Assembly: GCA_003945285.1 (NCBI GenBank)
Contig: AP019005.1
Coordinates: 2,059,747-2,123,746 of the forward strand
DNA: 64,000 nt
Direction of reading: 5' to 3'
Source: Hydrogenimonas sp.
GTDB taxonomy: Bacteria > Campylobacterota > Campylobacteria > Campylobacterales > Hydrogenimonadaceae
The translations under genes were made by a program, and so were the position numbers. Positions 18,342-29,699 of the stretch are shown one piece after another. Numbering within the stretch: the first letter of the stretch is position 1; the number at the start of each line of letters is the position of its first letter. The notes below the pieces were generated by a model, which worked only from the letters and a program-made list of their open reading frames with translations, was not told the DNA's origin and did not search any database.

Positions 18342-18750
18342 TACCGCTCCTTTGATTTTTAGAGGTGCTTAGGTATTCCCTGAAACGCACATGCCTGAAG
18401 GTGCGCACCGTAACGACCGAGCCTCCCTTTTCATACTCCTCTACCTCTCGCCAGGCAGCGGCATACACAGGTATCATATCCAAATTATACGCCACCTCGA
18501 CCATGTAGCATGTAGCGCCGAAGTCGCCCTGCACCAGAAGATAGTCGCCCCTCCTGCCATGATGCGTCACAAACCCGACGATCCCGTCAAGCAGAGGACG
18601 CACGTCATCGGCAAGGGGAGAGATGGAAGACCAAACCGCCCTGAGCCCTTCGGTTAAAAAAATGAAATTCTCTACACCCAGAGAGCGGCGCGCATCCTCT
18701 TTCTGCTCTTCGCTCAAAGTGTGCGAAAAAACCACAATCATCTTTCTCAT
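18334..18750 (-). CDS. csx20: Csx20-like CARF protein, probable ring nuclease
   Basis: 138 residues, with the Csx20 pattern: KMIVVFSHTLSEEQKEDARR at the start, LGVENFIFLTEGLRAVWSSI, then GDYLLVQGDFGATCYMV in the second half. Csx20 is a stand-alone CARF protein of type III loci, predicted to bind and degrade cyclic oligoadenylate and so switch off effectors such as its CARF-HEPN neighbour. Overlaps the gene before it by ATGA and the gene after it by 8 nt. Confidence 0.8.
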   Translation of the reverse strand: MRKMIVVFSHTLSEEQKEDARRSLGVENFIFLTEGLRAVWSSISPLADDVRPLLDGIVGFVTHHGRRGDYLLVQGDFGATCYMVEVAYNLDMIPVYAAAWREVEEYEKGGSVVTVRTFRHVRFREYLSTSKNQRSGNG

Positions 18751-19139
18751 AACTCTGCAACTCCTTCTATGCGCTCTCTGTTTTCGAAAAAATAGCGGTA
18801 AACTTCAAACGCCAGCTCCCTCGGAAGATACCTGCCCGTAACTTTTTCATACAAAAGCCCGTTCTTGGCACACCCTATACGGAGCCCTTTGTAGCTCAAC
18901 TCCGGATAGACACCTTTATCGGTATCGGCCTGAAGATAGACCCTTAGAGCGGCCACGAAACGGTAATAGTCATCCGGAAGCTCTTTTGAACGCCCGTTCC
19001 GGGCCTGTTGCGCTTCCAACGCTCCACGCAACCGGCGAATCTCTTCGACAATATATTTCAGCACCGAAGCCAAACTCTCTCCCTGCGGCAACCGGTATCG
19101 CAAATCGTACTCTCTGTTGAGTGTCGGGTCAATTTTCAT
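18747..19139 (-). CDS. unknown protein, first gene of ancillary CRISPR operon
   Basis: 130 residues if started at ATG 19139 (MKIDPTLNREYDLRYRLPQ); an ATG at 19178 would lie inside the palindromic operator, so the shorter form is preferred. The sequence has a helical, Arg-rich middle (VLKYIVEEIRRLRGALEAQQ) and a C-terminal half with aromatic residues (KGLRIGCAKNGLLYEKV, ELAFEVYRYFF). No CARF, HEPN or nuclease motif was found. Its stop overlaps csx20 by 4 nt, so it belongs to the CARF-effector operon. It is not a Cas protein known to me. Confidence 0.7.
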   Translation of the reverse strand: MKIDPTLNREYDLRYRLPQGESLASVLKYIVEEIRRLRGALEAQQARNGRSKELPDDYYRFVAALRVYLQADTDKGVYPELSYKGLRIGCAKNGLLYEKVTGRYLPRELAFEVYRYFFENRERIEGVAEL

Positions 19140-19161
19140 GGGACTATTATCCGGAAACATT

Positions 19162-19178
19162 TTGACAAAACATGTCAA
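19162..19178. promoter_or_regulatory. palindromic operator of the ancillary CRISPR operon
   Basis: TTGACAAAACATGTCAA: 6-bp arms TTGACA/TGTCAA around a 5-bp spacer, 22 bp before ATG 19139. A 14 of 15 match with the same spacing lies at 23207 before the adaptation operon. On the minus strand it also contains a TTGACA that could serve as a -35 element. Confidence 0.6.
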
Positions 19179-19307: not shown

Positions 19308-21369
19308 GCCCCAATCCCCTAAATATCGGGTCTGGTTGTAATGCATTAAAATACATTTAGACCTGCGTTAATTTGTCTCAATCCCCTCAAAATCGGGTCT
19401 GATTGTAATTATCGGTTATTGACTCCTGCTCAAATTGAGCAAGTCTCAATCCCCTCAAAATCGGGTCTGATTGTAATAGGTGAGATCAAGAGAAATGTTG
19501 AAGTTGGAAGCGTCTCAATCCCCTCAAAATCGGGTCTGATTGTAATCTAAGGAGGGTGTAAAATGAAACTGGTTTACGTTGAGTCTCAATCCCCTCAAAA
19601 TCGGGTCTGATTGTAATAGTAAGACTCTTTGTAGTCACACAAAGCGAGCGATAGTCTCAATCCCCTCAAAATCGGGTCTGATTGTAATCGCTCTGAAGAG
19701 ACCGGTAGATTCGAACTCCACCAGGAGGTCTCAATCCCCTCAAAATCGGGTCTGATTGTAATTCCACCAGGAGTTCGAATCAAAAGAAGAATTTTACGCC
19801 GTCTCAATCCCCTCAAAATCGGGTCTGATTGTAATGCAGATGGGAAAGCAAAACACGTGACGGAACACCAGTGTCTCAATCCCCTCAAAATCGGGTCTGA
19901 TTGTAATCCCAATGACTGTTAGGAAAGACTAGCCGCCGAAAGGTCTCAATCCCCTCAAAATCGGGTCTGATTGTAATCCGTTCTTTTAGAACTACAAAGA
20001 GATAGTAAGGTCTCAATCCCCTCAAAATCGGGTCTGATTGTAATAGATTCCAGATTATCTTGAAATCGGGAGAAGGGCGTCTCAATCCCCTCAAAATCGG
20101 GTCTGATTGTAATTCAAATAAGAGGAGAAAAAAATGAAACTAGAGTTTACGTCTCAATCCCCTCAAAATCGGGTCTGATTGTAATTCAAATATCGCCTAC
20201 TGACGCCGAGTCAGATAGAGGTCTCAATCCCCTCAAAATCGGGTCTGATTGTAATATTAGACCGAAATTAACTTAAGAAGTGTTGCAGTCTCAATCCCCT
20301 CAAAATCGGGTCTGATTGTAATCTTGCGTTTCTTTGACTTGATCGCTTACTTGCTGTCTCAATCCCCTCAAAATCGGGTCTGATTGTAATAACACTTGAA
20401 ACAGAAAACACAAAAATGCTTGATGGAAGTCTCAATCCCCTCAAAATCGGGTCTGATTGTAATTAATGTACTCGTATTGCTAAACAGCGCCATATCTAAC
20501 GTCTCAATCCCCTCAAAATCGGGTCTGATTGTAATATGAAACTGAAAGAATTAAATAGCAAGATTGAGAGTCTCAATCCCCTCAAAATCGGGTCTGATTG
20601 TAATTAGCCGCTTCCATTTTTATAGGTGTAAAAACCATATATGTCTCAATCCCCTCAAAATCGGGTCTGATTGTAATGAGTATCGAGTATATCGAAGAGA
20701 CATACGGGGTGCGTCTCAATCCCCTCAAAATCGGGTCTGATTGTAATAAAAGAAGAAAAAAAAATCAAATAAGGAGATTGAGTCTCAATCCCCTCAAAAT
20801 CGGGTCTGATTGTAATCCATAATAGTTTAATCTATATTCCCTAACTTGGGAAGTCTCAATCCCCTCAAAATCGGGTCTGATTGTAATATTAACGCCGAGT
20901 CAAATCGAACAATTGCTTAGTCTCAATCCCCTCAAAATCGGGTCTGATTGTAATTTTTAAATCCATCACGTTGATGGTTGAAACAATAAGGCGTCTCAAT
21001 CCCCTCAAAATCGGGTCTGATTGTAATTTAGTGGTAACAAGATGGTGCTTACACCCAAGAAGTCTCAATCCCCTCAAAATCGGGTCTGATTGTAATTGTT
21101 TACACAAAGCTTACCAAGGCGGATAAAAGTCTCAATCCCCTCAAAATCGGGTCTGATTGTAATGTGATAGCCGCTTAAGCAACGGCTACGGAAAACGGTC
21201 TCAATCCCCTCAAAATCGGGTCTGATTGTAATGATATAATCGAAATAGAAGCTACAAACAACCCCGTCTCAATCCCCTCAAAATCGGGTCTGATTGTAAT
21301 CAAAGAGGAGATTGAAATGAAAACAGAACTAAAAGTCTCAATCCCCTCAAAATCGGGTCTGATTGTAAT
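19308..21369 (-). CRISPR. type III-A CRISPR array, 30 repeats, 29 spacers
   Basis: 35-nt repeats, on the plus strand GTCTCAATCC...CTGATTGTAAT, start at 19308, 19375, 19443, 19512, 19583, 19654, 19728, 19801, 19873, 19943, 20010, 20079, 20151, 20221, 20288, 20356, 20429, 20501, 20570, 20643, 20713, 20782, 20853, 20920, 20993, 21062, 21129, 21198, 21266 and 21335. All appear identical except the leftmost, which differs at five positions and marks the trailer end. Spacers are 32-39 nt. The leader side is the right end, next to cas2b, and the minus-strand repeat ends ATTGAGAC, the 8-nt crRNA handle of type III systems, so the array is transcribed leftward. Confidence 0.98.
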
Positions 21370-21514
21370 AGCGACATAGGCAAGTGAAATAACGTATTTC
21401 AGGGAGTTGCAGAAAACTGGGTTTTCTTAAAAAACTCTTTGATGTCAAAAAGAGCCATTCCGACACCCGTTGACCCCCCCAAACTTCCGTAAAATCTGAC
21501 CTTAAGCGAAGCTT
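21370..21514 (-). promoter_or_regulatory. CRISPR leader
   Basis: 145 bp between cas2b and the first repeat. It contains a perfect small palindrome GAAATAACGTATTTC (21386-21400) only 16 bp from the array and, reading leftward, TTTTTGACATCAAAGAG, which offers a TTGACA -35. These would drive pre-crRNA synthesis and guide integration at the first repeat. The exact promoter is not certain. Confidence 0.6.
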
Positions 21515-21793
21515 TCATGTTAAAACGACCGGTTCTCGCAAATCTATCGCGTCTCCCAGCTTCATCCCGGGGTCGATAACCGTATAGATCCTGACATCAT
21601 CCTCTTTGCAGTCGATAATGCCGTCGATCATCTCCATTATATCAAAAAGTTCCTCCTGTTTGACAGATTGGGCGAAAAAAACGGAATACTGTATGCGAAT
21701 CGCAATCTTTTCCAGCTCCCTCGCAAGCTTCCGCAGCCTCTTGCCGTCGGATATGTCGTAGCATATGATGTAGTCGGCGGTATAGCGGCTCAT
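21515..21793 (-). CDS. cas2: Cas2 (second copy, array-proximal)
   Basis: 92 residues, MSRYTADYIICYDISDGKRL at the start with the conserved Asp after the first strand (YDISD), IQYSVFFAQ in the middle and EDDVRIYTVID near the end: a complete ferredoxin-fold Cas2. Cas2 dimers bridge two Cas1 dimers in the spacer integrase. It is last in the adaptation operon, overlapping the Cas1 N-domain gene by ATGA. Only about 30 percent alike by eye to the other Cas2 (22889-23161). Confidence 0.93.
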   Translation of the reverse strand: MSRYTADYIICYDISDGKRLRKLARELEKIAIRIQYSVFFAQSVKQEELFDIMEMIDGIIDCKEDDVRIYTVIDPGMKLGDAIDLREPVVLT

Positions 21794-22029
21794 ACTTTTC
21801 TACTCATTTTTGCCAGAAGTCTACCGTGCTTGTCTATGAAATAGACTGGTACGCGCCTGAATATCTCCATGAGACTCTTCACGGAAAGATCGACCGACCT
21901 GTTGAGATAGACCGCTTTGATGCGCTCAAAACCTATATATTGCATATCATAAAGCGTACTTATCTCCAGGTGGGTCTCGTTGACGACGATTTTAGCCCTG
22001 GGGTCTTTGACTATAAGCGCTCTTCTCAT
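21790..22029 (-). CDS. stand-alone Cas1 N-terminal-domain-like protein
   Basis: 79 residues, MRRALIVKDPRAKIVVNETH at the start, lining up over its length with residues 1-70 of the adjacent Cas1: the segment ERIKAVYLNRSVDLSVKSLM matches RLIDLLVLCGEMEIGTKTLL, and VPVYFIDKHGRLLAKM matches VSLLTVSKNNRTFSL. That is the beta-rich N-terminal domain used for Cas1 dimerisation. There is no helical catalytic domain, hence no nuclease site. It is joined to cas1 and cas2b by 4-nt ATGA overlaps. Not a broken cas1, because the full cas1 is intact beside it. No described family with this architecture is known to me. Confidence 0.8.
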   Translation of the reverse strand: MRRALIVKDPRAKIVVNETHLEISTLYDMQYIGFERIKAVYLNRSVDLSVKSLMEIFRRVPVYFIDKHGRLLAKMSRKV

Positions 22030-22892
22030 GTTATGGCCGACCTAAGAAGTGCAATCTCGTCATTTATGGAGGGCAGCAGATCCTCCCCGAACGTCTTGAT
22101 CTCTCTCCAGAGCCTCTTTCGCGACTCAAACCTCAGGTAGACGCCGTCTCTCTTACTGAAATCCTCCGCCTTCAGATACTTTTCCAAAAACCACTCCGCC
22201 GTTTTTTCGTTGATTTTTGCGCGGAACACTTCGAGAATATCGGAACTCAGCCCGTTGTGCGATCGAAACGGCTCATGAAGATAGCTGATGGCCGGGTCGA
22301 AACCGTTCATATGTAGGCGGACTGTAATTAGATGGTAGAAATAGGTATAGAGGTAGGACAAGATCGCATTTACAGGGTCGAGCGGCGGACGCTTGGAGCG
22401 TCTGCTTTTATGAAGAGCCTTTGGCAAAACGGAGAAGTAGCGGGAGAAGTAGATGTTTGAAAAGCTCCCTTCAATGCCCAGCATCTGCGAAACAGTCTCG
22501 GCCTCCCTGATTTTTTGCATCCAGTCTCGCAGATCGATTTCAAAACCGAGCTTTTCCAGATGCTTCGCATGGGTTTTGATCTTCTCTTCGAGAAAGTATT
22601 TTGCGAAATTGAGACGGTTTTTCGTAACGGAACGGTACTGCAGCATCTTAAGCTCACCGTTTTTCGGCGCAAGCGGAAGTGTGAGGGAGAAGGTCCTGTT
22701 ATTTTTGGAGACGGTAAGCAGCGATACCCCCTCCTTTGCCAGCGCAAGAAGTGTTTTCGTACCTATCTCCATCTCTCCGCAGAGAACCAGAAGATCTATA
22801 AGGCGGTATGGTATCTGCTGCGTCTCCACTACGATTCCACTCTTTTTTGCTGTTATGACAATATCGCTTCTGTCGACTATGACCGTTTTCAT
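22026..22892 (-). CDS. cas1: CRISPR integrase Cas1
   Basis: 288 residues: an N-terminal beta domain (1-75) and helical catalytic domain with the metal ligands E141 (GIEGSFSNIYF), H206 (SYLHEPF) and D218/E221 (LSSDILEVFRAKI). These match the conserved acidic and His residues of active Cas1. It is the integrase subunit inserting new spacers at the leader end. Sits between cas2a and the free N-domain gene with 4-nt overlaps on both sides. Confidence 0.96.
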   Translation of the reverse strand: MKTVIVDRSDIVITAKKSGIVVETQQIPYRLIDLLVLCGEMEIGTKTLLALAKEGVSLLTVSKNNRTFSLTLPLAPKNGELKMLQYRSVTKNRLNFAKYFLEEKIKTHAKHLEKLGFEIDLRDWMQKIREAETVSQMLGIEGSFSNIYFSRYFSVLPKALHKSRRSKRPPLDPVNAILSYLYTYFYHLITVRLHMNGFDPAISYLHEPFRSHNGLSSDILEVFRAKINEKTAEWFLEKYLKAEDFSKRDGVYLRFESRKRLWREIKTFGEDLLPSINDEIALLRSAIT

Positions 22893-23161
22893 ATGAGAAT
22901 CGCTCCATTCTCGTAATTGATCTGCTTCGCCCTTCCCAGAAGGATCGCCTTCGGCATCACATGCACCAGGTGCACCCTGTCCTCTTCTGGGTCGATGGAG
23001 TCCAGCAGCTCATCGAGCACGACGGGAAGCTCTTTCGGCTCCAGCAGACTCTCCAGCGCGCTCTTTTGTCCTCCCAGCGCATAGGAGTAGGCCACCTTCG
23101 CGCACCTTCTGCGCCGCTTGCTGCTTCTGACGTCGTAGGCTATGAGATAGTGACCGCTCAT
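22889..23161 (-). CDS. cas2: Cas2-like protein (first copy, operon-leading)
   Basis: 90 residues with the Cas2 outline: HYLIAYDVRSSKRRRRCAKV (Asp after strand 1), GGQKSALESLLEPKEL, DPEEDRVHLVHV. The loop after the Asp is unusually basic (KRRRR) and the sequence is clearly different from the second Cas2 at 21515. It opens the adaptation operon, 45 bp after the palindromic operator, and overlaps cas1 by ATGA. Whether it forms homodimers or pairs with the other Cas2 is unknown. Confidence 0.9.
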   Translation of the reverse strand: MSGHYLIAYDVRSSKRRRRCAKVAYSYALGGQKSALESLLEPKELPVVLDELLDSIDPEEDRVHLVHVMPKAILLGRAKQINYENGAILI

Positions 23162-23312: not shown

Positions 23313-24608
23313 CTACTCTCCCAGTATCGACTCGATAAACACCCTCCTCTTCAACGCCTTCTGCTTGGCCTTCTCCCAGGTTTTCGGATTTTCCAACAGC
23401 TTCGCTTTTATCTTCTGCGCCAGCTCCACTTTGATCGATTCGTAATTTTCTATCTCACCGTTTTGCATTTTCCGGATAAGCTCCGGGATTTCGACGGTTT
23501 CGATCAGCCTCTCTACGGGAGAGAGGGAGGCAAGCCGCTGCGCTTCGGCTCTCTTCCGCTCGGCCTTTTCTTCCTCTTCGCGCCTCATCTTCAACTCTTT
23601 CTCGTTGCGCTCTTTCTCTTTCTGTATGCGGCTCTCTCTCCACTCTTTCGCGTATGCCGTTCTCTTTTTTATGAGTTCGCGCAAAACTCTCTCATACTCC
23701 GCCGAAGCCTCCCGGTAGCCCTCTTCATCCAAAATTTTCGCCGCGACCCATCCGAAAGGGGTGTAGCCTCCCTCTTTCGACGCTATCACCGTATGGGTAA
23801 CCGGTATTTTGTCGGGATTTACCGAAGTGAAGTTTTTTCCGGCAAAGCGCCCCACCCTGAATAGAAAGTCGGCGCCGAGCGCATCGGCCCTCCTCTTGTA
23901 TTTTGCGAACATCTTTTCGTCCGCCTGCATATCGAACCGTTCAAGGGAGCGGGCTATATCCTCTATCGAAAAGAGTTGCTTTGACTCCCCTCTCCTTTCC
24001 GAAAGGATCGATCCGAAAAAGCTGACCCCCTCTTTGATGATTTCTATCTTAATAGGTATGCCTCTTCCCGGGGCATCTTTGAATTTGTGCCTTCTTTCCG
24101 CCACATCGCAAAATGTCACATCGGCTTGTGTCGGGAAAAAGTCCTCCACGAGCAGGTTCTGTCTCACATCATTTCCGACTCGGCCGGGATATATGCCGAG
24201 CGCTGTCCCAAAGACCCCCTTTATCGAGCTTCCCGGTATATAGGAGAGGAATGAGCCCGGCATAGTCATCGTTTTGGATATTTCGAGCAGGTTTTTGTTC
24301 AGAGTGCCGTCTTTGTTGAACTGCCTTGTGTAGATTTTTGAAATCTCGCGCGATACAGGCAGTTTGCGGTAGGCTATAGATTTGGCAAGATCCTTCTCTA
24401 TATCGTAAAAACGCTTCAGGGCGTACAACCCCTGACCCGCCATATTTTCGAAAGCCCGCTTCTGTGCGGCAGAGAGGGCGTGAAAAAAGTCGGTTTCATC
24501 AAATTCGTAAAGAGTGTCGCCGTCGATTATGTAAGCCGTAGGCACGAAATCCTCCCCCGATCCGATATGAAGCGGCGAGAGTGTCGTCAACTGCAGATAG
24601 TGTCTCAC
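23313..24608 (-). CDS. csm5: Csm5, type III-A RAMP subunit
   Basis: 431 residues. The N-terminus LTTLSPLHIGSGEDFVPTAY is the first Csm5/RAMP signature and YIPGSSIKGVFGTAL is the glycine-rich loop. A long Glu/Lys/Arg coiled-coil-like insertion (about 330-365) precedes the C-terminal helix. Csm5 caps the crRNA 3' end of the complex and recruits trimming nucleases. Overlaps csm4 by 4 nt and ends the interference operon. Confidence 0.94.
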   Translation of the reverse strand: MRHYLQLTTLSPLHIGSGEDFVPTAYIIDGDTLYEFDETDFFHALSAAQKRAFENMAGQGLYALKRFYDIEKDLAKSIAYRKLPVSREISKIYTRQFNKDGTLNKNLLEISKTMTMPGSFLSYIPGSSIKGVFGTALGIYPGRVGNDVRQNLLVEDFFPTQADVTFCDVAERRHKFKDAPGRGIPIKIEIIKEGVSFFGSILSERRGESKQLFSIEDIARSLERFDMQADEKMFAKYKRRADALGADFLFRVGRFAGKNFTSVNPDKIPVTHTVIASKEGGYTPFGWVAAKILDEEGYREASAEYERVLRELIKKRTAYAKEWRESRIQKEKERNEKELKMRREEEEKAERKRAEAQRLASLSPVERLIETVEIPELIRKMQNGEIENYESIKVELAQKIKAKLLENPKTWEKAKQKALKRRVFIESILGE

Positions 24609-25495
24609 GATGCGTCTCCTTTTCCTATGGCAACCGTCACCGCATACCCCTGGTGCACCGTATCCGGATGGGCCGACGAGTGGCCCCGGATCGCCTTTCC
24701 GGCATAGGGTAGAGTTCGGGGCGAATCAAAATCTAAAACAGCTCCCGTATCGGCCAACAGAAGAGGTTTTTTGAACACCTTGCCTCTTGCACGTTTTCCA
24801 CCATGCTTCCCGAAACGTGTCATCGGCCGGTACCGGACATTTACCGCTTCAACCCCCTCCAGTGATGCCGGCGAAAGAGTCATAAAGCGCTCACCCTCCA
24901 TGGGCAGCTCTACAGTTTCGGTTTCGACGAGACTATACCTGCCTTTGCCGATAGAGGCATCCTTTCCGTAGCCGTACAGACCCACCGCCTCGAGCCACCT
25001 ATGAACATCTTCCGATGCGGCTTTGGACCTGTCGAACATGAGGTAAATCTCTTTTTTGCCTAAAAGATAGCGCTTCTCTCCGAAAGGGGCAAACTGAGCT
25101 CCGCCGGTTTTGAAACTCCTGTAATCGAGGGAGTTGTGCAGTGTCACCGTCGAAACATCCCCTAATCCCGCCTCATGATTGCTCAATGCTTCGTTGAATC
25201 TTCCGGCTTTGAGATCCGACATGGAAATCCACCGCTTGTCACGGTTGATCTTTCTCTCTTCAGGATCCTCTCCCAGTTGAAAATATGGCATTGCCGGCTT
25301 GGGAAGCAGCCCCGGAGGAAACGGATCGCTAACGATCAGAAAAGGGTTCCTGTCGTAATCATCGAGAAGAGATTTGAGCCTCTCTTCCCCATCCAAAAGC
25401 GCGATGGTCCAGCATATCTGACCGAAAAGAGTATCCCCGCGCAGTGGAGTACCGAACTCTGAAAGAGGCTCTATCTGAGCGCGTACCGTTTCCAT
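24605..25495 (-). CDS. csm4: Csm4, type III-A RAMP subunit
   Basis: 296 residues beginning METVRAQIEPLSEFGTPLRG with DTLFGQICWTIALLDGEERL, the usual Csm4 N-terminal pattern, and GYGKDASIGKGRYSL as the glycine-rich loop. Csm4 holds the 5' crRNA handle next to Cas10. Three bp after csm3 and overlapping csm5 by ATGA. Confidence 0.93.
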   Translation of the reverse strand: METVRAQIEPLSEFGTPLRGDTLFGQICWTIALLDGEERLKSLLDDYDRNPFLIVSDPFPPGLLPKPAMPYFQLGEDPEERKINRDKRWISMSDLKAGRFNEALSNHEAGLGDVSTVTLHNSLDYRSFKTGGAQFAPFGEKRYLLGKKEIYLMFDRSKAASEDVHRWLEAVGLYGYGKDASIGKGRYSLVETETVELPMEGERFMTLSPASLEGVEAVNVRYRPMTRFGKHGGKRARGKVFKKPLLLADTGAVLDFDSPRTLPYAGKAIRGHSSAHPDTVHQGYAVTVAIGKGDAS

Positions 25496-25498
25496 AGC

Positions 25499-26131
25499 CT
25501 ACTCGCTTTGCGGTATGAATCGGACACGGCCGTAACCGCGGGAGCCGTTGCCGCCGAGATAATCTTTTTCCACGAGGGAGATGGCCGTTTCTACCATCTT
25601 CTCCAGCGCCTCTCTGTCATCGCCGTCGAAAACTTTTATCCGGATATCGTAGTTGAACTTTACGCCCGCCGGCACCCGCTCGGTCTGGCGGGGGTTTAGC
25701 GCCGTCCCTCCCTTCCTGTTGATACTGTTTTCGAATTTCGCTTCGCTCAACTCCATCTCTTTCGACTCTTCGCAAAGATGGCAGTCGCCAACGCTGATTC
25801 GCGTTATCCCGTACGGGCTTTCCGGGTTCGGGTCGCCGAAAAGCTCTAGCAGCGTACGGGCATCGCGTTTTACCCCTTCGGGAACTTCGTCCATCAGCCT
25901 GGAGCCAAAAGGGGATCCATCCGCACTGGGTAGGTAGACCAGCCGCAGGTGATGCTCCAGCAAAGAGCGCATCTTTCCCTTCAGAGAGCTTCCCGGAATA
26001 TAGGGATGGCCGCTGTTGGCATCCTTGATGACGCTGTTGTCGATACCGCCGATCTTCATGGTGTCGTCACCCCCGCCGATGTGCAGCCCGCTAAGTAGTT
26101 CTATTTGACCTTTAAGTTGTATGATTTCCAT
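25499..26131 (-). CDS. csm3: Csm3, backbone and target-RNA nuclease subunit
   Basis: 210 residues: GQIELLSGLHIGGGDDTMK, then GGIDNSVIKD with the catalytic Asp (D31) that cuts target RNA at 6-nt intervals, YIPGSSLKGKMRSLLE, and GGNGSRGYGRVRF at the end. Forms the helical backbone around the crRNA. Length and motifs are typical. A cysteine-containing loop (DCHLCEESK) suggests a small metal site. Confidence 0.96.
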   Translation of the reverse strand: MEIIQLKGQIELLSGLHIGGGDDTMKIGGIDNSVIKDANSGHPYIPGSSLKGKMRSLLEHHLRLVYLPSADGSPFGSRLMDEVPEGVKRDARTLLELFGDPNPESPYGITRISVGDCHLCEESKEMELSEAKFENSINRKGGTALNPRQTERVPAGVKFNYDIRIKVFDGDDREALEKMVETAISLVEKDYLGGNGSRGYGRVRFIPQSE

Positions 26132-26141
26132 TTTTCGCTCC

Positions 26142-26537
26142 TTATTTTCCTTTGTAAAATCCGAGAACCGCTTCGAAAAAGAGTTTGAAGTTTCTCAACT
26201 TTTCGGGTGAGTCGACCTGCGATATACACCTTTTCATCATATCCGCAAAGCTCTTGTTGACCAGAGTGCCTCCATCACCTTTTCTGTGCAGGGCATACTC
26301 CACTTTTGAGTTGAGCATCTTGACAAAAGGAAGAATGTCTTCAAAATCTTTCTCCCTGTTTTCAACCTTCCGGTTCAACTCCAGCACCTTTTCGTAAAAG
26401 TTGCGAATCTGGGTCGATTTGACTCCGCAATCTCCATTTTTTTTCTGATTGTCCTGACAGATGGCATCTGCCCACGACTTCGCGGTTTCATTGAACAACT
26501 CCGGATCTTTCCTGTAATCGAGCTCAATCGGTTTCAT
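26142..26537 (-). CDS. csm2: Csm2, small subunit
   Basis: 131 residues, all-helical, with the conserved STQIRNFYEKVLEL segment and the C-terminal NFKLFFEAVLGFYKG of Csm2. Small subunits line the target RNA channel. Start ATG overlaps the csm1 stop by 4 nt. Confidence 0.93.
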   Translation of the reverse strand: MKPIELDYRKDPELFNETAKSWADAICQDNQKKNGDCGVKSTQIRNFYEKVLELNRKVENREKDFEDILPFVKMLNSKVEYALHRKGDGGTLVNKSFADMMKRCISQVDSPEKLRNFKLFFEAVLGFYKGK

Positions 26538-28870
26538 ACTCTCCTCCTTTTGTAGATATATTCACTCAGCACCATTTTGGTCTCCATGGGGTAGTTTTCG
26601 ATCATATTGGCCACCAGCTTCATAAGGCTTTCTGCTTCTCGCGTTTTTTCGGCATCTTTTGCATACTTTTCGAAAAGATTGCGCCTAAAGGTGTAGCTGA
26701 GCCTTGAGCGCCACATGCTGTTTTCTATATTCTCGTCCATCTCGAGGCGCATCTGGTTCAGCTGCAGCAGTCGGTAGAGCATCGACGTGTTGCGTTCGCC
26801 CAGCATCTCTTCGAGCCTGGGCAACTCTTCGAGCAGATAGAGGGCGTTGTCCTCGTCTGCATAGTGCTTCCAGCCTGCTGTTTCACCGAAGAGGGTCAAC
26901 GCATCTTTGCTAGGCAAGAGCATCTCTTTTTTCTCTTTATACTCTTTGGAAGCTTCCAGCGCCGATTCGGCTGCTTCTGCTATGAAGTTGACCGGCTTGT
27001 TGGGTTTTGTTACGACAATACCCGCGGAAAACGTCAAACCGCTCTTTGCTGCAAAGCGTGTGAAATCTTCATGAAGCTCTCTTGAAAACTCTACGACTTC
27101 ATCCCACGCCCCGAGAATAAAAATATCGTCCCCGCCTGAAAAAACCGTATACATCGGCCTGCCCTCCATCAGCCGTGCCGACTCCACGCTGAAAAAGTAG
27201 TCGATCATTCTCGAAAAGAAGTTGTACCTCGCAAACGAAGCGGTGACATCGCTGTTTCTGATGTAGCACCCCATATTGTCCACATCGCCCTTGAGAGCGG
27301 CCAGGGCCTTCAATCCGTAATCCGGATCGCCATTGCAACTCTTTTGGGCAAGCTCCTCGAATGTCGACACATACCCATCCTCTATCGCCACGTAGCTTGC
27401 AAGCTCCCACTTGGCGTACCCCGCAAACTCGGGATCTTTGGAAATATCGTAAATTTCGACGGCATTGTCGAATCTCTCGGGTTTTTCGGAAAAATTGAGA
27501 TGCCACTCTCCGAAGATCGGAATCTTACCGCTGCCTTTCGAGATCGTGAGAAATTTTTTGGTCGCCAGCTCCCTGCCGATCCTGACAAATTTTTCGCAAC
27601 TCCCGCAGGCGATGTATGTTTTGTCACTGCTCTCTCTTTCGATACCTTTACGCAGATGACATAACTGACAGAGATTCCGGTTGTCTATCCCGTCGTCCAG
27701 CTCCAGCACCGGATGGCGGGAGGCAAGATCGAATCTCCTGTACTTCGCCTCTTCGACGGACTCGGCGACTCTTGGTCGGAGCGACTCCCTGTAGCGCCCC
27801 TTTACGATGAAGTCGGCCAGAGCGCACGGCGTACAGCTCAAACCGACTCCCGTCTCTCCAAAATACTCTTTTATGAAGAAGTCGTCGATCTCACTCTGCA
27901 GTTTTTGCACCTTTTCCAATGTTTCGGGGGTGTTGATAGCCAGAATTTCAAATTTTCCGGCGGCGGTGGTCACGATGCTTTGGTGGCTCATACCGATCTC
28001 TTCGGCCACATGGAGGGCGAGTATTCGTGTAAGCACCTGCACATAGGCCGATTTGGAGCGCAGAATCTTGCTCGCTTTGGCCGCTGGCACATCGTTGAAT
28101 ATAAACTGCTGGATACCGAAGAAATCACCGGTCACCATCAAAAGGTTTCTACGCTCGATATCACCCCTTCCATGGCGATAGTAATCGAGAATATCGGTGT
28201 CCCCTTTTTCATACAGCGCATAGATCGCGGTGGCGAATATCGCGGTCGCCCTGCTGTGATCGTAGAGCGGAACGTTGGCCTTCACCGGCGTGTAATCTCC
28301 CTTTTTGAATGTGGTTGAAGATGGAATGAAGGAGGTGTGCTTTTTCATCAGATAGTCGATAGTTCTATAGTCGTTTGCTCCGCTTCCAGCCTTCTCTATC
28401 TTTTCCATGTCTTCCACGAAAGCTTTCCAGAGCGCATCATATTCGTTTCCGTCAGCACCTTTCTCCACCGGATAGATGGTATCCGGCGCAAGCGGGGCGA
28501 TCGGAAAGCGCCTCTTTTCATCGAAGAGGTGCCAGAGTCGCTGCTTTCTGAAATCTTCCCGGTCGCTCATCTCGTTGTATTTTTCGAAAGCCTCCCTCTC
28601 GAAACCGCTCGCCATCCTGTCTGCAGCCGCGATGATCCACGCATCGTCTCCATCGGGCGCATGGTGCATAGCCGCCATATCTATCACCTCCTCCGGCAGC
28701 TTGAACGCCAATCCGCCGTCTTGAAGAATCTGCGCCGTGTATGCCGCATGAGTGTAGCGGTATCTTTGCACCGGAAATATATCTTTCAGTCGATATATAT
28801 CCGTTCGCTGCCCGAATTTGCCTATGTCGTGCAGCAACCCGGCCAAAGCTATCTCGTCAATCTTTTCCAA
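26534..28870 (-). CDS. csm1: Cas10/Csm1, signalling and DNase subunit
   Basis: About 778 residues from TTG 28870, chosen because AAAGGAG lies 6 nt upstream and the product then starts LEKIDEIALAGLLHDIGKFG, as in other Csm1; an ATG at 28930 would overlap cas6 by 74 nt. The HD nuclease motif (H14, D15), a zinc-ribbon-like CQLC/CGSC pair (about 401-425) and the cyclase motif FSGGDDIFI (GGDD about 579-582) are all intact, so both ssDNA cleavage and cyclic-oligoadenylate synthesis are expected. Overlaps cas6 by 14 nt. Confidence 0.96.
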   Translation of the reverse strand: MEKIDEIALAGLLHDIGKFGQRTDIYRLKDIFPVQRYRYTHAAYTAQILQDGGLAFKLPEEVIDMAAMHHAPDGDDAWIIAAADRMASGFEREAFEKYNEMSDREDFRKQRLWHLFDEKRRFPIAPLAPDTIYPVEKGADGNEYDALWKAFVEDMEKIEKAGSGANDYRTIDYLMKKHTSFIPSSTTFKKGDYTPVKANVPLYDHSRATAIFATAIYALYEKGDTDILDYYRHGRGDIERRNLLMVTGDFFGIQQFIFNDVPAAKASKILRSKSAYVQVLTRILALHVAEEIGMSHQSIVTTAAGKFEILAINTPETLEKVQKLQSEIDDFFIKEYFGETGVGLSCTPCALADFIVKGRYRESLRPRVAESVEEAKYRRFDLASRHPVLELDDGIDNRNLCQLCHLRKGIERESSDKTYIACGSCEKFVRIGRELATKKFLTISKGSGKIPIFGEWHLNFSEKPERFDNAVEIYDISKDPEFAGYAKWELASYVAIEDGYVSTFEELAQKSCNGDPDYGLKALAALKGDVDNMGCYIRNSDVTASFARYNFFSRMIDYFFSVESARLMEGRPMYTVFSGGDDIFILGAWDEVVEFSRELHEDFTRFAAKSGLTFSAGIVVTKPNKPVNFIAEAAESALEASKEYKEKKEMLLPSKDALTLFGETAGWKHYADEDNALYLLEELPRLEEMLGERNTSMLYRLLQLNQMRLEMDENIENSMWRSRLSYTFRRNLFEKYAKDAEKTREAESLMKLVANMIENYPMETKMVLSEYIYKRRRV

Positions 28871-29699
28871 TCTCACTCCTTTCGATAAAGTAGTCGCCCA
28901 GTCCGAACACCGTCTGTTTGCCGACTCCAAGCACTTCGCCCAGTTTCAGATAGGCATAGCTCTGCTTGTCCAACCCTTGAAAACCGATGCTTCCTATTAG
29001 GCCGCCCAACTTCATTCTGCTCTTTTGCCTGTTGGAATAGCGGTAGAGATCTAGATGCTTCAGCCGGCTCGACGAAATCTCACCCCGAATATCGTAGCCG
29101 GGACGTGAAGGCTCCATTCTCTTCATCTGCCTGTATCGGCCGTGGATACTCGAAACCAGCATGGGCAGATCGAGCTCTCGAGAAAGACGGTTCTCCTTTT
29201 TGATTCTAAGAGGTGTCCTCATCTTCAAAACGGCACCGCTATGAAGCTCATTGAGCATAAAATGCTCCGGAACTATTTCCGAAAGCGAAGAGAACTTATC
29301 TCCGTCATAGACTCTCCGCCCCCCTGTCTCTATGGAGCATACCTTCACCTTCTCTTTCTTCCTCCCAAGCCCGTTCACCTCCAGTGCATATTTGACTGCG
29401 GAGAGCATATACGGCAGCTGTGAAGTGGCATCCTCATATATCCACACCGAAAATTTGAGACGGTTCATACCTAGTGCCGATGTGATGCGATATGGATGAA
29501 AGGTATTCTTTTTTTCGTAAAAATCGTAATAGAGGCAACTATCCGCCGCAAAACATTGATCGCAGCAAAAAGATGGGTTGATACATACGACACGTTTCAA
29601 AGCTACCCCCAGCGCTCCCCTCAACATAGAGCCCGCAAAAAAAGGCGGTTTATACCCCTCTTCAGCCGTTACATCGATTTTGAACCATTTCAAATCCAT
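28857..29699 (-). CDS. cas6: pre-crRNA endoribonuclease Cas6
   Basis: 280 residues. The N-terminal half has a four-cysteine stretch (NPSFCCDQCFAADSCLYYD), unusual for Cas6 and possibly metal-binding; the C-terminal half has HGRYRQMKRMEP and the glycine-rich GEVLGVGKQTVFGLGDYF loop that defines Cas6. It should process the array to crRNAs with an AUUGAGAC handle. First gene of the interference operon; the catalytic residue is not obvious. Confidence 0.9.
   Translation of the reverse strand: MDLKWFKIDVTAEEGYKPPFFAGSMLRGALGVALKRVVCINPSFCCDQCFAADSCLYYDFYEKKNTFHPYRITSALGMNRLKFSVWIYEDATSQLPYMLSAVKYALEVNGLGRKKEKVKVCSIETGGRRVYDGDKFSSLSEIVPEHFMLNELHSGAVLKMRTPLRIKKENRLSRELDLPMLVSSIHGRYRQMKRMEPSRPGYDIRGEISSSRLKHLDLYRYSNRQKSRMKLGGLIGSIGFQGLDKQSYAYLKLGEVLGVGKQTVFGLGDYFIERSEIGKD

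Follow-up and report, generated by a model that had tools for sequence, protein, structure and literature searches.

CRISPR memory is defined by the Cas1-Cas2 machine, and how this integrase distinguishes its two ends is a central question. In the solved examples the complex derives from one cas1 and one cas2 gene, and identical Cas1 subunits take both the catalytic and the non-catalytic roles, half of them acting only as non-catalytic partners. A locus of Hydrogenimonas sp. raises the question of what an adaptation cassette would do with an additional, 79-residue Cas1-type protein and with two different Cas2 proteins. In the window, that is, the whole stretch of 64,000 nucleotides that was analyzed, the following features surround and make up this cassette.

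type III-A effector operon, 23313..29699, minus strand: cas6, cas10/csm1, csm2, csm3, csm4 and csm5
cas6, 28857-29699, minus strand: PADLOC Cas6, E 1.7e-51
cas10/csm1, 26534-28930, minus strand: TIGR02578, E 5.8e-172
csm2 and csm3, within the type III-A operon, minus strand: identified from their position and from homologues in related loci
csm4, within the type III-A operon, minus strand: PADLOC Csm4, E 2.2e-81
csm5, 23313-24608, minus strand: TIGR01899, E 2.7e-11
cas2a, 22889..23161, minus strand: 90 aa, divergent Cas2 lineage with an ALGGQKSALE signature; PF09827, E 6.7e-9
cas1, 22026..22892, minus strand: 288 aa, complete catalytic Cas1; PF01867, E 9.8e-49
cas1N, 21790..22029, minus strand: 79 aa, predicted free Cas1 N-terminal beta-domain without catalytic domain, based on 23 homologous loci and the predicted fold
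cas2b, 21515..21793, minus strand: 92 aa, canonical-looking Cas2 with a RIQYSVF signature; PF09827, E 5.6e-16
putative leader, 21370..21514, minus strand: from the cas2b stop to the first repeat, assigned by position
CRISPR array, 19309..21369, minus strand: 29 perfect 35-bp repeats (19375-21369) and a degenerate terminal repeat near 19309
p143, 18747..19178, minus strand: uncharacterized gene beyond the array

A four-gene adaptation cassette and its 79-residue protein

Along the minus strand, the type III-A operon is followed by cas2a-cas1-cas1N-cas2b (23161-21515) and then by the array, past which lie genes for Csx20, a CARF-HEPN Csx1 and a WYL regulator (Pfam, NCBIfam and PADLOC). The four open reading frames and the three 4-nt ATGA junctions joining them (TCAT on the plus strand, at 22889-22892, 22026-22029 and 21790-21793) were found just as the initial annotation had described them. 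The array holds 28 spacers, all unique and 32-39 nt long, and its direction of transcription was deduced from the degenerate repeat at its far end. The same genome contains further Cas1 matches outside the cassette, at C1:1604101-1604778 and C1:1935060-1935683.

The small protein had been said to align with residues 1-70 of the neighboring Cas1. This did not hold at the level of single sequences, since BLASTP gave no useful alignment between the two; likewise, phmmer with the single Cas1N sequence gave no match in the PDB, where a Cas1N profile found marginal Cas1 matches only. Searches against Cas1 families returned weak N-domain matches, below the cut-off in Pfam (PF01867, E 0.046, 13.3 bits against a cut-off of 22.3 bits) and as the best hit in PADLOC (E 0.002). 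The relationship was supported, however, by profile-profile comparison with the neighboring Cas1 (E 3.2e-4, columns 7-75 against 3-68) and decisively by the predicted fold. The AlphaFold2 model, computed from a 23-sequence alignment (A1), is a beta-sheet domain with one helix (pLDDT 96.2, pTM 0.83), and all its Foldseek matches in the PDB at E<=1e-3 are Cas1, the best one being 7kft_D, the Cas1 of a Cas6-RT-Cas1 protein (probability 1.00, TM 0.78 by query). The C-terminal alpha-helical catalytic domain of Cas1, with its Glu, His and Asp, is absent. Judging from this model, Cas1N is a real Cas1 N-domain, as had been proposed, and is a Cas1-domain protein but no Cas1 enzyme. The intact Cas1 beside it retains E141, H206, D218 and E221, the four residues pointed out initially, all of which are invariant across an alignment of 18 homologues (A2).

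Distribution and conservation of cas1N in Campylobacterota

A single-sequence search found relatives of Cas1N in 26 of 399 genomes of the order. Of these, 23 are short free homologues from many genera, while the remaining matches lie inside longer frames and were not recognized as Cas1N. All 23 short-homologue loci share the order cas2a-cas1-cas1N-cas2b, with cas2a unrecognized in one (L017). Because the Cas1N alignment contains no stretch conserved enough to scan with, we used the Cas2a signature instead, and obtained 37 loci from 84,980 species genomes, among them 33 Campylobacterota cassettes, 30 of which carry cas1N. The 33 include two metagenome-assembled contigs binned as Candidatus Gracilibacteria (L046 and L051), which carry Campylobacterota cassettes and are probably misbinned; L051 is nearly identical to L050. 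No relatives were found in viral contigs or in plasmids.

The gene order seen in the window proved to be conserved among these vent and sulfur bacteria: of the 42 distinct cassettes from Campylobacterota, 39 contain cas1N, and in each of them it lies between cas1 and cas2b. Thirty-seven of the 42 have all four genes, one lacks a recognized cas2a, one meets a contig edge before cas2b, and three are without cas1N. The 4-nt overlap between cas2a and cas1 recurs in 34 of 37 distinct loci, and cas1 with cas1N as well as cas1N with cas2b overlap in most. For the one informative pair, L040 and L048 (other pairs being mostly saturated at synonymous sites), cas1N has a dN of 0.10 and a dS of 1.05, a ratio of about 0.1 that is similar to those of cas1 (0.08 and 1.07) and cas2b (0.10 and 1.60). 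As judged from these substitution rates, cas1N is under purifying selection. In view of the breadth of occurrence, the constant position and the dN/dS ratio, we rejected both a chance open reading frame and a pseudogene.

The three cassettes without cas1N (L053, L059 and L065) keep cas1 and both cas2 genes, and no Cas1N was found elsewhere in their genomes by a search that was positive in two control genomes. Since the three are scattered in the Cas1 tree, with L065 standing beside L021, which has cas1N, three independent losses are the likely history. These losses, together with the missing catalytic domain, might be read as signs that cas1N is a functionless, decaying remnant of a duplicated cas1. 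Yet the frame is intact in 38 distinct loci over many genera, the dN/dS ratio is about 0.1, the model is well folded and the position is constant, so that this explanation is nearly excluded.

Some loci depart from the common layout. In L016 and L061, cas1 is broken up into three reading frames, although cas1N, cas2a and cas2b remain open, reflecting either a decaying locus or assembly errors. In L019, L022 and L023, cas1N has no standard start codon closer than one situated 25 codons upstream, within cas1; starting there, the gene overlaps cas1 by 115 nt and its product gains a basic N-terminal extension.

Full-length counterparts in other phyla and the two Cas2 lineages

In two Gammaproteobacteria loci recovered by the Cas2a scan (L067 and L068), the cas1N slot is occupied by a protein of 267-279 aa, here called Cas1'. 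It matches PF01867 in the N-domain only (E 4.9e-11, positions 6-95), its profile aligns, over 257 columns, with that of the Cas1 encoded in these same loci (E 2e-12), and Cas1 structures match its model (pLDDT 84) along the whole length. In 14 of 15 inspected Cas1' proteins the region of the catalytic Glu (GxEG) is missing and the His is replaced; L093 Cas1' keeps the His and Asp, has a degenerate Glu region and looks transitional. The Cas1 partners of Cas1' keep all four catalytic residues, except for one Asp in place of Glu in L086. Thus, Cas1' has kept the fold and lost the chemistry, as expected of a structural partner.

Among 369 genomes of the class Gammaproteobacteria, 19 gave matches, comprising 14 Cas1' in the order cas2a-cas1-cas1'-cas2b (in L080 the contig stops before cas2b) and 5 ordinary Cas1. 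This protein has a counterpart in PADLOC, where profile PDLC01185 is labeled "Cas1, diverged variant, second in the loci": it resembles the Gammaproteobacteria Cas1' (E 3e-15 and 2e-13), covering positions 1-192 of 246 with the Cas1' of L068 and 1-118 with that of L071, and the slot after a normal cas1 is the same. A PDLC01185 search of 247 Acidobacteriota genomes gave 9 matches, 4 of them in Cas1' cassettes (L090-L093). A further Acidobacteriota cassette (L064:9989-12087) has cas2a, cas1 and cas2b without Cas1', and PDLC01185 has no match anywhere in that genome. Together with the three losses of cas1N, this locus indicates that a cassette does not strictly need this part. The 399 genomes of the order yielded no full-length Cas1'; the 17 matches checked there turned out to be Cas1 proteins, whether ordinary, long or belonging to the cassettes already described, one (L107) being without a recognizable open reading frame. 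Conversely, a search without positive control found no free Cas1N in the 369 Gammaproteobacteria genomes.

The repeated loss in three lineages would fit a non-essential modulator, and a free dimerization domain can compete for partners. Cas1N could accordingly be a regulator that occupies the N-domain dimer surface of Cas1, limits the assembly of active Cas1-Cas2 and thereby tunes acquisition. We regard this as quite unlikely, because in nearly every locus cas1N is tightly co-translated with its neighbors cas1 and cas2b, which argues for a stoichiometric subunit rather than an inhibitor, as does the full-length dead Cas1' that occupies this slot elsewhere.

The initial annotation knew of no described system with this set of genes. 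Indeed, we found no paper describing the set, and a search of mostly open-access literature turned up neither a free Cas1 N-domain nor two Cas2 lineages in one cassette nor a function for the second Cas1. The full-length counterpart, however, was already named as PDLC01185, a 246-position profile without any description of function. At E<=1, this profile has no match to the 79-aa Cas1N of the window, and two other Cas1N proteins had no match in PADLOC; by position, Cas1N is nevertheless what the label describes, a second cas1-type gene directly after cas1 and before cas2b. What is new is that 14 of the 369 Gammaproteobacteria genomes and 4 of the 247 from Acidobacteriota have a Cas1' in the cas1N slot, with the catalytic Glu and His missing from 14 of the 15 inspected; the profile itself was known. 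Two possible precedents were considered. Marme_0670 of Marinomonas has been described without a known function, and PMC12669027 was set aside as a source for a "diverged Cas1", the matching part of its text reading "diverged Cas10".

The profile of Cas1N matches Cas1' (E 1.9e-5) better than it does the neighboring Cas1 (3.2e-4) or the Gammaproteobacteria Cas1 (0.045). On the basis of slot position and profile similarity, Cas1N is likely a trimmed Cas1', although this grouping has a support of 27 in a tree of N-domains (85 columns). The alternative grouping of Cas1N with Campylobacterota Cas1 was not rejected (p-AU 0.71), and the N-domain tree is compatible with descent either from Cas1' or from a duplicated Campylobacterota Cas1.

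The two Cas2 sequences differ as strongly as had been noted (29% identity), and both score above the PF09827 cut-off of 23.8 bits, with 36.3 bits for Cas2a and 58.9 for Cas2b. A conserved Asp is found in the alignments of either protein (A3 for Cas2a and A4 for Cas2b, 22 sequences each), and Y9, D10, G30, G31, Q32 and S34 are invariant in A3. In the Cas2 tree, the Cas2a proteins from Campylobacterota, Gammaproteobacteria and Acidobacteriota cluster together (SH-aLRT 92), and all Cas2b fall outside this cluster. This single group over three phyla points to a common ancestral cassette, as far as the tree can tell, and the presence of two old Cas2 lineages suggests a Cas2a:Cas2b heterodimer. Alternatively, two separate lineages, each with its conserved Asp, could serve two separable integrases, Cas1-Cas2a and Cas1-Cas2b, that handle different prespacers or arrays, with Cas1N or Cas1' selecting between them. 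While the further Cas1 genes in the genome would suit such a division, there is a single array with one repeat beside the cassette, and the four genes have stayed together in each of the three phyla; we therefore hold this reading to be distinctly improbable.

A dedicated non-catalytic protomer as a possible role

How could a Cas1 N-domain contribute to integration? Cas1-type dimers form by juxtaposed N-domains, one monomer catalyzing and the other facing away from the DNA; in E. faecalis, the Cas1 N-domain contributes its strand beta-1 to a pairing with the C-terminal Cas2 strand, and the proposed bridge passes through the non-catalytic subunits (PMC6977970). Since the N-domain makes both contacts, a non-catalytic subunit needs an N-domain but no active site. 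This fits a Cas1' that has kept its fold and lost its chemistry, and Cas1N would be the same role reduced to the N-domain. The initial suggestion that the small protein caps or replaces one Cas1 protomer thus appears to be the best-supported of its readings, given that a full-length inactivated Cas1 fills the same slot in other phyla; its further suggestions, a bridge between the two Cas2 types or a regulator of the integrase, are conceivable.

The reading that we favor is that the cassette encodes a hetero-oligomeric spacer integrase, with Cas1N or Cas1' as a dedicated non-catalytic protomer that would link catalytic Cas1 to Cas2; we consider this model to have an even chance of being correct. 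Cas1 would be the catalytic protomer, and Cas1N in Campylobacterota, or the inactivated Cas1' in Gammaproteobacteria and Acidobacteriota, would pair with it through the beta-sheets of the N-domains. The resulting Cas1:Cas1N (or Cas1:Cas1') dimer would dock on a Cas2 core, maybe a Cas2a:Cas2b heterodimer. In Campylobacterota, the partner would have been cut down to the N-domain, the part that provides the contact between protomers and also, in E. faecalis at least, one with Cas2. The built-in difference between the two ends could then orient the spacer at integration. The sequences and models show the gene set, its conservation, the folds, the loss of catalytic residues and the purifying selection, while physical association, stoichiometry, the role in orientation and the origin of Cas1N from Cas1' are what we infer here. 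Several observations count against the partner model: in Cas1-2/3, the inactive Cas1 subunits also wall the repeat channel (PMC12259127), which a bare N-domain may be unable to do, and there are cassettes that do without cas1N or Cas1'. A stricter version, in which the partner is obligate, the core is the Cas2a:Cas2b heterodimer, the ends differ genetically and the identity of the subunits, not PAM processing, determines spacer orientation, is possible but unlikely.

Alternatively, Cas1 homodimers may be formed as usual, and Cas1N may be an adaptor or assembly factor whose Cas2-binding strand docks Cas2b or Cas2a onto them, or caps one face of Cas2, with no Cas1 protomer being replaced. The position of cas1N next to cas2b, usually overlapping it, the strand pairing known from E. 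faecalis and the complete Cas1 with its invariant active site all suit such a role. However, the Cas1' in the same slot keeps the whole fold of the Cas1 C-domain, which is more than an adaptor needs, and cas2b occurs without cas1N in L053, L059 and L065, so that we think this unlikely as well.

The dedicated-protomer model has both parallels and differences among known systems. With canonical Cas1-Cas2 (four Cas1 and two Cas2), the cassette shares a complete catalytic Cas1, Cas2 with a conserved Asp and an adjacent CRISPR array; it differs by its two Cas2 lineages and by a non-catalytic Cas1-type protein encoded separately, where the canonical system has a single cas1 and a single cas2. With the type III RT-Cas1 and Cas6-RT-Cas1 modules it shares the type III context, and its Cas1N is closest in fold to the Cas1 portion of 7kft, but it has no reverse transcriptase. 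Campylobacterota also carry long Cas1 proteins (730-750 aa) with a single Cas2, whose size suggests RT fusions. In the casposase of M. mazei, a Cas1-type dimer is likewise split into catalytic and non-catalytic monomers joined by their N-domains (PMC6977970), yet both monomers come from one gene, while in the present cassette a separate gene appears to serve the non-catalytic role. The Cas1N of Campylobacterota and the inactivated Cas1' in the same slot of other phyla suggest that a dedicated non-catalytic partner has arisen during the evolution of the integrase. A non-catalytic role carried by a gene of its own, of only 79 residues in one phylum, would allow a direct test of asymmetry by omitting or swapping the small subunits, and could yield a compact, orientation-controlled integrase for molecular recording.

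Two minor observations concern the array and its surroundings. Three of the 28 spacers (19375-21369) contain a Shine-Dalgarno and ATG pattern in the orientation that makes the deduced crRNA antisense to mRNA, and none does so in the opposite orientation (shuffled mean 0.6, maximum 5 in 2000 shuffles). This is suggestive only, and selection for antisense crRNAs in type III systems would give the same pattern. The p143 protein has no match in Pfam, NCBIfam or PADLOC, and its homologues lie within 200 nt 3' of cas2b in 17 of the 34 distinct Campylobacterota cassettes with room for them, which makes p143 a candidate fifth adaptation gene.
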